NCBI GenBank assembly: GCA_002742845.1
Contig: DLUH01000005.1
Span: 62,001-126,000, forward strand
From: Sulfurovum sp. UBA12169
Lineage (GTDB): Bacteria; Campylobacterota; Campylobacteria; Campylobacterales; Sulfurovaceae
Direction: 5' to 3'
DNA: 64,000 nt
Position 1 is the stretch's first letter. The number at the start of each line of letters is the position of its first letter. Below the pieces are notes generated by a model that was given only the letters and a program-made list of their open reading frames with translations, was not told the DNA's origin and ran no database searches. The position numbers and the translations under genes were made by a program. Positions 3,741 through 18,301 of the stretch are shown piece after piece.

Positions 3741-4853
3741 TCACTCCTGAAACAATTCATCCACATACACCACATCCACTTCTTTTAAAATATCTTGAGC
3801 CTCTTTAAGGGCTTGCAGTGTCAGTGCGTGGGGATGCGCTATGGCGATAGCATGACCATTTTTCTTTGCGATTTTGACAGCCTGTCTTAACTGCTTTCGT
3901 ATGGCATCTTTGTTTTGGATGTTGTCAAGAAACGTATCTCTGTAAATATAAAGATCTTTGTACGCATGTGCGATTTGACGAACTTTTGTTTTGGCGCTTG
4001 TTCGGCTATCTACAAATATAAACCCATTTTCTCTCAAAATAGGATACAGCACGCTCATCGCTTTTTCATTGGAAGTATACACGCTTCCCGTGTGGTTGTT
4101 AAGATATTTTGCCGCAGGAAAAAGTTTTCTGATCTCCTCTATCCTCTCACGAACCTTTTGCGGCGAATCATTCACTCTTAGTGTTTTGTGCATTTTATTC
4201 ATTTGTGCACTCCCCGATTCCATAGGCAAATGCACCATGTAGTGTTTCAGATCATGAGCCAGAGTATGGCTTGTGGAAGAAAATTCGGAAGGAGGAAAAA
4301 TAGAAGGTGTAAGCTTCGAGGGCAGCGATCGAATTTTATTGAGCTGCTGTGCATTGGAAACATCATCAATAATAATGGCAAGCCTGGCCTTCTTTGTCCG
4401 AGGCAACATTTTGACAGAAGAAGATGGAGTCAAGTTAGAATCATGGATACTCTTCTCAATAGAAGCAGCAGATCTCTCTTTTTTTTGAAATCCAATATCT
4501 TCCTCCAAAGTTTTGCCTTTTTGCTGCAATCTTTTTACTATGCTGTGATGTTCTTTTATGATCAATGCATCATCGGCTATCAAGGTACTATGATTTGTTT
4601 TTTCTGTTTTGGCCTCTTGTATTTTTACAATTTTAGGCGGGGACGCATGTTCGTCATTTTTATCATGCTGCCCCAAAAAATAGCCAAACACAACCATCAT
4701 TATCACTATACCAACCCCTCCGATAACTCCCAAATGCATTTTCCATTTATTTTTTTTGGCTTTGGCGGACCTTCTGTTTGTTGCTTTTTCAGCGGATACT
4801 CTTTTATTGTTTCGTATTGAATTGCCGCTTGATTTTTTAGAGGGCGCTGCCAT
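3741..4853 (-). CDS. Divergent polysaccharide deacetylase (YibQ family), membrane-anchored
   Basis: Residues 1-39 are basic and cytoplasmic. One membrane segment at about 40-61 is followed by a low-complexity charged linker, and the divergent polysaccharide deacetylase domain runs from about residue 155 to the end. 'LAIIIDDV' (158-165), an 'NNHTGS' motif, 'FVDSRTSA' and 'IAIAHPH' match the YibQ family, a NodB-like (beta/alpha) barrel whose biochemical activity is not well established. As I recall, a member of this family sits between ilvC and dprA in Campylobacter jejuni, in line with the neighbourhood here. It probably heads a unit with the downstream transporter gene. Envelope or peptidoglycan remodelling is an inference from location and fold. 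Confidence 0.85.
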   Translation of the reverse strand: MAAPSKKSSGNSIRNNKRVSAEKATNRRSAKAKKNKWKMHLGVIGGVGIVIMMVVFGYFLGQHDKNDEHASPPKIVKIQEAKTEKTNHSTLIADDALIIKEHHSIVKRLQQKGKTLEEDIGFQKKERSAASIEKSIHDSNLTPSSSVKMLPRTKKARLAIIIDDVSNAQQLNKIRSLPSKLTPSIFPPSEFSSTSHTLAHDLKHYMVHLPMESGSAQMNKMHKTLRVNDSPQKVRERIEEIRKLFPAAKYLNNHTGSVYTSNEKAMSVLYPILRENGFIFVDSRTSAKTKVRQIAHAYKDLYIYRDTFLDNIQNKDAIRKQLRQAVKIAKKNGHAIAIAHPHALTLQALKEAQDILKEVDVVYVDELFQE

Positions 4854-5054
4854 AGATCCTGCCGTTTTTGAATTTGATGCATTCTAACACAATATCACTT
4901 CGCAAAATGAATAATTTATCGTAAAACTTGAACATCGTAAGTATTTTTAGGTTCCCAAGGGAAAGCAAACTGTTTTGGCTTGTCATAAAAATAATACCTT
5001 TTTCATCTTTTGAACAGTCTATTGACAAACTTAAATGGCTTTAAAATTTTTAAC

Positions 5055-5068
5055 TTGATTTACATCAA
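5055..5068 (+). promoter_or_regulatory. Perfect FNR/CRP-family operator (TTGAT-N4-ATCAA)
   Basis: TTGATTTACATCAA is an exact match to the FNR/Dnr consensus half-sites with the correct 4-nt spacer. Its centre (5061.5) lies at -41.5 relative to the start site predicted from the -10 box at 5091-5096, the canonical class II activator position. It lies in the 308-nt gap between the deacetylase gene and the hemerythrin-like gene; 4854-5040 of that gap holds nothing else I recognise. Confidence 0.75.
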
Positions 5069-5087
5069 TAAAAAAACTTAAAAAATA

Positions 5088-5096
5088 TGCTATAAC
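5088..5096 (+). promoter_or_regulatory. Extended -10 promoter of the hemerythrin-like gene
   Basis: TGCTATAAC, an extended -10 (TGn plus TATAAC), has no -35 hexamer, as expected for an activator-dependent class II promoter. The predicted start is near 5103, leaving a leader of about 58 nt with a GAGGGAG ribosome-binding site before the ATG at 5162. Confidence 0.65.
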
Positions 5097-5161
5097 AATC
5101 TTGTATTTTCTATAATTTTAAATTATAAACATTTTAAATTACTTAAAGAGAGGGAGTAAAA

Positions 5162-5596
5162 ATGTTCTTTGATCTTTTTTCTTCAAAAAATAAAAAAATT
5201 GTAAAGCGTTGGATGAAAGAACATGAAGAGATTGTTACCTTGGCACATAAGATCATAGCTGCCTATTCTAGCAACAATCATATTTTGGCAAAAAAAGAGT
5301 TGATTTCACTGAACAATACAGCGGTCAATCATCTTATGAATGAAGATATTGAACTTTATAAGCTTCTAAAAAAACGTAATGACATGCACCATAAAATTGA
5401 AAGCGATATCAAAAAATTTAAAGAAAACTTTTCAGAAACAAAGATAAATCTGATGAAATTTTTGACATATTATTCCAAAGCAGAAACGCCGCTTGATGAA
5501 AGTTTTTTCGATCAATTCAACAGCTTGGTGGGCATCCTGGGAGAAAGAATTGATTTTGAAGAAAACAATCTCTATCAAAAGCTTGAAGCTATTTAG
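5162..5596 (+). CDS. Hemerythrin-like (HHE domain) protein
   Basis: A 144-residue all-helical soluble protein with histidines and carboxylates spaced as in the HHE four-helix bundle: H21/E22 and H29 in the first helix, H57 and E61 in the second, H76-H77 in the third, and 'DFEENNLY' (131-138) in the last. Hemerythrins hold a di-iron centre that binds O2 or NO. The ligand set here is incomplete compared with canonical bacteriohemerythrin (the last helix has no His), so iron binding needs proof. It is monocistronic behind an FNR-type box, suggesting induction under low oxygen or by nitric oxide. The next gene, ilvC, is convergent. Confidence 0.7.
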   Translation: MFFDLFSSKNKKIVKRWMKEHEEIVTLAHKIIAAYSSNNHILAKKELISLNNTAVNHLMNEDIELYKLLKKRNDMHHKIESDIKKFKENFSETKINLMKFLTYYSKAETPLDESFFDQFNSLVGILGERIDFEENNLYQKLEAI

Positions 5597-5731: not shown

Positions 5732-6766
<1,035 letters not shown>

Positions 6767-17590: not shown

Positions 17591-18301
17591 TTACTGCTTA
17601 TTTTTTTCAAAAACAAGAAATTTCTTATCTGCCCTATCCATTTCATACAGAGTAACCAAATCACTGCTTACCAGCTTTAAACCGCTTAGCTTCATGATCT
17701 CATCGACCGTATGATAGTATTGCGTAATCGTCTCTTGGGATTTTTTAAAATGCGTACCCTCTTTTTCAAAAAGAGTAAATTCAGACACATATTTGTTTGC
17801 TTCAAAATCGCTGTCTATCGTTAAAAATCTCTCTTTATCATCAACGACATAAGAGCCCACTGCCACGTCTTTAAACCCATACAGCGTGTTGATATCGCAA
17901 AGAAAAAAACCGCCTTCATTCAAATGCGCAGAGACGCAGGTTAAAAAACGCGCAAGAGAAGGTTTATCCAAGTAGTTTAGCATATCAAATACAGCTGTGA
18001 TAACATCATATTTGTCTTTAAGTTCACAAAGATCGATACATGTTGCATCTATCCCTTTTTGGGAACTTTTTTGAACCATCAAGGGACTAAGATCAATACC
18101 CTTGGGTGACATGATGCCCAAAGCCTCTTGCATCTGAAGCAAAAAATCGCCCGAACCGCATCCCACATCCAGAAGTGAATCAAAATTAACACCGGTCAGA
18201 AAAAGAAGATAGTGTGCATAAAGCCGAGGAGCCGCTTCTTTGACTCCCAAAAGATCTTCTACTTTGGCATAAAGATCGAGCGAAGAAGCACTATTCTCCA
18301 C
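17591..18301 (-). CDS. SAM-dependent methyltransferase, class I
   Basis: A Rossmann-fold methyltransferase with motif I 'LLDVGCGSGDFLLQ', a motif II region 'GIDLSPLMV', and 'YDVITAVFDMLNYL' followed by 'EGGFFLCDINT'. The target is unknown; small-molecule methyltransferases with a LanJ/UbiE-like core look like this. The frame runs up to 18361 inside hisG, but a GTG at 18301, 11 nt before the hisG stop and preceded by GAGGTGG, is the natural start and implies translational coupling to hisG. With that start the protein has about 236 residues. No histidine-pathway role is implied by the coupling alone. Confidence 0.75.
   Translation of the reverse strand: MENSASSLDLYAKVEDLLGVKEAAPRLYAHYLLFLTGVNFDSLLDVGCGSGDFLLQMQEALGIMSPKGIDLSPLMVQKSSQKGIDATCIDLCELKDKYDVITAVFDMLNYLDKPSLARFLTCVSAHLNEGGFFLCDINTLYGFKDVAVGSYVVDDKERFLTIDSDFEANKYVSEFTLFEKEGTHFKKSQETITQYYHTVDEIMKLSGLKLVSSDLVTLYEMDRADKKFLVFEKNKQ

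Follow-up and report, generated by a model that had tools for sequence, protein, structure and literature searches.

What switches on a solitary 144-aa gene that Pfam names after hemerythrin, and is its product a hemerythrin? The gene lies in a stretch of 64,000 nt from the sulfur-oxidising Sulfurovum sp. UBA12169 (contig DLUH01000005.1, positions 62,001 to 126,000 of the forward strand), here called the window. A sequence-only reading of this DNA had placed an exact TTGAT-N4-ATCAA site in front of the gene, centred at -41.5 as counted from an extended -10, which is the class II geometry of FNR/Dnr activation. Both the site and its geometry were borne out with a predicted +1 at 5103, which lies 48 nt from the start of the box (Table 1).

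To assess the site against chance, the window was compared with 200 dinucleotide shuffles. One exact box was observed against a mean of 0.29, and one correctly spaced pair of box and good -10, with both orientations counted, against 0.005. When one mismatch was allowed and the spacing ignored, the window contained eight boxes where 6.9 were expected, which is the chance level. The significance of the site thus comes from the spacing between box and -10 and not from the box alone. The gene had also been read as a monocistronic unit. This agrees with the neighbouring long ORFs, which are both on the minus strand, so that the 144-aa gene does look monocistronic; a simple scan found no factor-independent terminator downstream of it. 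The observation is confirmed: a class II promoter with an FNR box precedes a solitary gene.

Table 1. Features at the 144-aa gene, in positions of the window
Feature	Position	Strand	Remark
FNR/DNR/Nss-type box TTGATTTACATCAA, TTGAT-N4-ATCAA, exact	5055..5068	+	predicted activator site; centre 5061.5, at -41.5
Extended -10, TGcTATAAC	5088..5096	+	19 nt past the end of the box
Predicted transcription start	5103	+	inferred from the -10 spacing
Likely ribosome-binding site GAGAGGGAG	5148..5156	+	assigned by eye
TTGACA	5022..5027	+	in the window too distant from the -10 (5091) to be its -35
Direct repeat AAACTTAA, copy 1	5027..5034	+	sequence inspection
Direct repeat AAACTTAA, copy 2	5074..5081	+	sequence inspection
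144-aa gene; four-helix bundle, probably Rsd/AlgQ-related, with a hemerythrin-like half metal site	5162..5596	+	H21, H57, E61; R129 and E133 in helix D
Neighbouring long ORF	3741-4853	-	flanks the 144-aa gene
Neighbouring long ORF	5732-6760	-	flanks the 144-aa gene

The denitrification island and its Crp/Fnr-type regulator

The genome to which the window belongs comprises 1.86 Mb and contains 18 exact boxes. Nine fall within ORFs, of which the 88-aa one around L005 is doubtful. None of these nine has a -10 score above 5, on a scale that runs to 7; scores of at least 6 have a background frequency of 0.003 per orientation. Of the nine intergenic boxes, seven reach a -10 score of 6 or more in one or both directions at offsets 35-37. 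The other two are L007, which scores 5 both ways, and L004, which scores only 3 and is without a -10 at class II spacing. A denitrification island at 17-57 kb of contig C4 holds five of the 18. We defined strong class II sites as boxes with at most one mismatch and a -10 score of at least 6. Nine such sites were found at offsets 35-37 in 80 kb of C4, compared to 0.05 in shuffles, and seven other offset triplets on the same 80 kb gave zero or one site each. The site at 17775, which belongs to these nine, coincides in part with the TTG start of an ORF that was called mechanically. Three exact boxes (17215, 36961 and 56131) serve divergent genes, having a -10 score of at least 4 at offset 36 on both sides.

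The genes that follow class II sites were listed from exact boxes with a score of at least 4 and one-mismatch boxes with a score of at least 5. Among them are genes for NapA, which passed its family cut-off, NrdD, a cd1-type nitrite-reductase-like protein, cytochrome c/NirJ-like and NirDL-like proteins and a NorC/NorB-like cluster. The NorC- and NorB-like proteins were called by their cytochrome c and COX1 domains, and the NirJ-like radical SAM protein scored below its model cut-off. The NirDL-like protein is a siroheme decarboxylase by resemblance, and the same 17-57 kb of C4 (L031-L033) also contains siroheme genes and encodes two proteins with hemerythrin domains. A search for the same site in front of denitrification or NO-reductase genes had been proposed as a check on the sequence-only reading. 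It returned exact or one-mismatch boxes at the same spacing before napA, the cd1-nitrite-reductase-like gene, the norC-/norB-like cluster and heme-d1 genes, and a class II box at offset 36-37 is common to many island operons. For the nos genes none was flagged in the 80 kb of C4, beyond which the upstream end of their minus-strand operon may lie. The activator design in front of the 144-aa gene is the one repeated across the island. This gene is very probably transcribed from a class II activator-dependent promoter and belongs, as an outlier, to a denitrification regulon of the DNR/Nss-like type.

Further sites were observed within and outside the island. The gene for the anaerobic ribonucleotide reductase NrdD (C4:26326-28488) has a one-mismatch box at class II spacing. 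Two hemerythrin-domain genes, one with a PAS domain, flank the divergent box 56131 (C4:54999-57265, L033). Two exact boxes lie elsewhere, one at C1:235381 (L001), with TATAAT placing it at -40.5, before a WYL-domain regulator gene, and one at C1:388227 (L002), with TATAAT placing it at -42.5, before a periplasmic binding-protein-like gene.

To find the regulator, the genome was searched with HTH_Crp_2. A single protein of 233 aa was detected, encoded inside the island (C4:35197-35898), so that an FNR/Dnr-family candidate, whose absence would have spoken against the earlier reading, is indeed present. A search for a second Crp/Fnr regulator through the cNMP-binding domain gave as its only other match a 623-aa frame (C1:254181), which HTH_Crp_2 did not report. 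The recognition helix of the regulator, ETxSR, is as in E. coli FNR and in P. aeruginosa DNR (3dkw). In a PDB sequence search, DNR was found at E 9e-10, behind two "cyclic nucleotide-binding protein" entries. In an alignment, the regulator and five relatives were without the cysteine-bearing N-terminal extension of E. coli FNR. Identification of the regulator as FNR proper was rejected on this ground. With the FNR cysteines missing and the recognition helix of FNR/DNR type, a DNR/Nss-like regulator fits better than FNR. Of the FNR/Dnr-type regulator that had been claimed, the Crp/Fnr activator with a matching helix stands and FNR itself does not. The sequence makes NO or N-oxide sensing of the DNR/Nss type likelier than Fe-S oxygen sensing.

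The signal could be nitrate or N2O instead of NO, in the manner of Wolinella NssA and NssC. Passages of a 2019 review describe NssA, NssB and NssC as responding to nitrate, NO and N2O (PMC6682613), and a single protein of this kind was found in the genome. We regard this as a serious possibility, to be held tentatively, and as a variant of the DNR/Nss-like reading that does not exclude it. The genome also encodes two Rrf2-type proteins, which could include an NsrR.

The regulator and the 144-aa gene were then compared across the genus. Close relatives of the regulator (at least 57% identity) occur in 17 of 37 genomes, the window genome included. The gene accompanied the regulator in 10 of the 17 genomes and was present in 2 of the 20 without a close regulator (p = 0.004, kinship ignored). 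Among the 18 genomes that are at least 90% complete, it was present in 8 of 10 with the regulator and 1 of 8 without (p = 0.015, kinship again ignored). The 43 regulator loci, from other genomes, gave 28 distinct exact-box contexts, that is 56 orientations. In these, a -10-like hexamer (at least 5/6) was most often at offset 36 (16/56), followed by offset 9.

The 144-aa protein between hemerythrin and Rsd/AlgQ

The Pfam Hemerythrin model (PF01814) matched the 144-aa protein marginally, at 26.4 bits against a cut-off of 25.3, and the protein was not listed in a six-frame genome search with the same model. All 14 family members were matched at E<=10 (best 2e-11), three of the listed ones being below the cut-off or marginal. 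The named loci that best match the window protein are mostly from Sulfurovum MAGs. The AlphaFold model is a four-helix bundle (pLDDT 85), and K12, H21, H57, M59, E61, D62, Y104, R129, E133, E134 and Y138 are invariant in the 14 homologues. An alignment with YtfE and HHE proteins was made for 13 of the 14 homologues (L022 left out) together with five sequences that the Rsd model had picked out. H21 and H57xxxE61 matched iron ligands. R129 replaces the helix-D His of YtfE in 14/14 members, and E. coli Rsd also has Arg there. The helix-C ligand column has no His in any of the 13 aligned members; H76 and H77 of the window protein precede this column, and both together recur only in L018 among the aligned rows. 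With the helix-C His missing and the helix-D His changed to Arg, a complete diiron site is not expected, and the protein does not have the full set of ligands (H, HxxxE, H, HxxxE).

Searching the PDB with the 144-aa protein by itself turned up no useful match. With the family alignment, the search returned each half of DcrH-Hr and, weakly, bacteriohemerythrin and YtfE, a result in favour of a hemerythrin; Rsd was missing from the matches listed at E<=1. Foldseek found nothing in the PDB at E<=0.001. The structural Z-scores were 12.2 for DcrH-Hr and 11.2 for the Rsd chain 4xwj_A over 132 residues. Since hemerythrin, Rsd and designed bundles are not told apart by such scores, we do not rest the relationship to Rsd on them.

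The Rsd_AlgQ model (PF04353) matched 5/14 members at E<=10, those shown being below the cut-off (best 28.4 against 35 bits), and the window protein was not reported at this threshold. One match in the same genus reached 31 of the required 35 bits. In 298 Campylobacterota genomes the model gave eight matches, six of them family-like (two just at the cut-off) and two unrelated. L106 and L107, members that come from a different genus within the same bacterial family, narrowly passed the Rsd_AlgQ cut-off (35.3 against 35). A distant homologue outside Campylobacterota, L089, is from a betaproteobacterium; in the same genome (G072), C1:16557 matches the Rsd model (1.2e-5) and is probably the same gene.

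When profiles were compared with profiles, 28 family sequences against 30 Rsd sequences (of 36 loci over the cut-off) gave a probability of 95.9%, end to end over 127 columns. Leaving out the five sequences picked with the Rsd model, the remaining 23 gave 93.7% over 126 columns, and a 16-sequence core gave 69%, while reversed Rsd controls gave 0.1-0.4%. Against 29 HHE sequences, the 28-sequence profile reached 18% over 57 columns, in the first hairpin only, and the smaller family sets 11% and 7%, with reversed controls at 0.2-1.3%. The HHE set is narrow, being the 29 best-scoring PF01814 loci of one bacterial family, and its lower diversity (Neff 2.5 vs 4.4) tilts the comparison somewhat to Rsd. 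The Rsd signal emerged with the 30 Rsd sequences; when the 14-sequence alignment was compared with one E. coli Rsd sequence, the probability was 0.7%, under E. coli YtfE (12-13%) and an HHE protein of the genome (12%). The Rsd and HHE profiles compared directly gave 0.3%.

Collectively, the 144-aa protein looks at least as similar to Rsd as to an oxygen-binding hemerythrin, and the family that Pfam names after hemerythrin is better read as a relative of the polymerase regulator Rsd. Of the hemerythrin-like gene described earlier, the Pfam match above the cut-off holds; half of the hemerythrin iron ligands are absent and the profile is closer to Rsd/AlgQ. For these two reasons, the handling of NO or O2 by a hemerythrin, which had been put forward as its function, is doubtful. 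An oxygen-sensing FNR that drives a genuine O2- or NO-binding hemerythrin could draw on the Hemerythrin matches throughout the family and on a box that, according to parts of Rodionov et al. 2005 (PMC1274295), is common to FNR and DNR. We consider it highly improbable, given a regulator without the FNR extension, no second HTH_Crp_2 protein detected in the genome, an Arg at position 129 in all 14 members, the helix-C His in 0/13 and a match to HHE proteins of one bacterial family confined to the first hairpin.

Promoters of the homologous loci

We searched the upstream 300 nt of 27 distinct homologue loci (35 minus 8 duplicates). Five had an exact box and one, L071, a box with one mismatch. 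At the remaining 21 there was no box with up to one mismatch, including 11 of the 17 loci with a close regulator in the genome, which suggests that the control is lineage-specific. The box was associated with the regulator weakly (6/17 loci with it vs 0/10 without, p = 0.057). Counting the window, four of the six loci with a box have a -10 exactly at offset 36; L019 and L073 have a better -10 at offset 40 (-45.5) and a weaker one at 35 (-40.5). The 36-nt offset from box start to -10 seen in the window recurs at L018, L071, L028 and most island sites. In L018, an 89% orthologue, both half-sites are kept in a setting where the N4 and a large part of the flank are not those of the window.

At L070 (JAJPEU010000007.1), where the protein is ~90% identical, ~47 bp as counted on the window are missing between the two AAACTTAA repeats, one copy is retained and the box is gone. 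A loss of 47 bp between equivalent AAACTTAA positions would explain this arrangement. After the deletion, the upstream TTGACA stands 16 bp from TGtTATAAT, making a consensus promoter with TG before the -10. The L070 regulator is 97% identical, and the box near it is retained, with weaker -10 elements there. In our reading, activator-dependent transcription has here given way naturally to a constitutive mode; an assembly error is a possible alternative source of the deletion.

That the box is incidental and an ordinary sigma70 promoter transcribes the 144-aa gene, as the AT-rich upstream region, the box-free consensus promoter predicted at L070 and the 21 of 27 loci without a box might suggest, is the least probable reading and very improbable, because box and spacing together are expected 0.005 times per window, a simple promoter scan gave three matches against a shuffle mean of 4.4 with none using the -10 at 5088-5096, and L018 preserved its half-sites through the changes around them. 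Control of the 144-aa gene by the detected Crp/Fnr regulator is, as far as sequence can tell, well supported. The support consists of the box, its spacing, the island-wide design, the single detected regulator, the presence of the box at some homologues and its loss in one natural case.

Proposed mechanism and comparison with known systems

Binding, activation, the start site and the signal at this promoter we infer as follows. A dimer of the sole detected Crp/Fnr regulator (233 aa) would bind the box at -41.5, replacing a -35 element, and would recruit sigma70 polymerase to the extended -10. The 144-aa gene would then be induced together with the nap, nir and nor genes during nitrate, nitrite or NO respiration. 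Its product would be a four-helix bundle related to Rsd/AlgQ that retains half of a hemerythrin iron site. Rsd/AlgQ binds sigma70 region 4. The 144-aa protein is most likely a small regulatory or protective partner in denitrifying cells, not an O2 carrier. A bolder proposal, which we consider unlikely, is that the family is a living hemerythrin-to-Rsd intermediate, its first hairpin with hemerythrin ligands and its second Rsd-like with Arg for the iron His. It would be N-oxide-induced via the denitrification regulator in some Sulfurovum and would adjust either RNA polymerase or a partner in the stringent response, with iron or NO at the half site perhaps serving as a gate. From the layout, a compact denitrification regulon is predicted in a Sulfurovum, in which the promoters are position-exact and one regulator was detected, and the small hemerythrin-named, Rsd-related family may bear on the origin of Rsd.

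Nitrosophilus labii belongs to the same phylum as Sulfurovum. According to parts of a 2024 study, its RNA-seq-predicted starts of napA, norE and nosB lie 48-49 nt from the first base of an exact box (PMC11539149), and the word "hemerythrin" is absent from the main text of that paper. The Nss-type systems of N. labii and of Wolinella, likewise of this phylum, share the box TTGA-N6-TCAA, the box-to-start distance as predicted in N. labii and nap, nor and nos targets with the regulon described here. They differ in having two or three regulators, compared to the one detected here. Portions of two articles describe NssA/B/C as Crp/Fnr regulators of Wolinella (PMC6682613; PMC8139620). As passages of the first of these state, Campylobacterota encode no FNR orthologues, the respiratory genes of free-living Sulfurimonas denitrificans seem mostly constitutive, and genes resembling those of the Nss regulators are present in free-living relatives (PMC6682613).

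In the DNR regulon of Pseudomonas and beta-proteobacteria, the box TTGATnnnnATCAA / CTTGATnnnnATCAAG precedes nir and nor genes, as given in parts of Rodionov et al. 2005 (PMC1274295). The FNR-box motif and a regulator of the Crp/Fnr superfamily are alike in the two systems, the likeness to DNR itself being the sequence resemblance to 3dkw (E 9e-10). The present regulon differs in its phylum, and its single detected regulator seems to cover napA and the Rsd/hemerythrin-like gene as well.

We found no paper joining Rsd/AlgQ with hemerythrin, and "anti-sigma factor Rsd" was absent among the matches listed. The 144-aa family resembles Rsd/AlgQ (PF04353) in its end-to-end profile match (95.9%), its four-helix bundle and a common R-x3-E in helix D. 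It differs from Rsd/AlgQ in an identity of 13% and in keeping H21 and HxxxE, which are absent from E. coli Rsd. With HHE proteins (RIC/YtfE, DcrH-Hr) it shares the Pfam match, a helix A-B hairpin with H and HxxxE and a DcrH-Hr-like bundle; unlike them, it has lost the helix-C His and has Arg for the helix-D His. Together, these comparisons show a kind of promoter that is already known, and what is new is the target gene and its probable relationship to Rsd.
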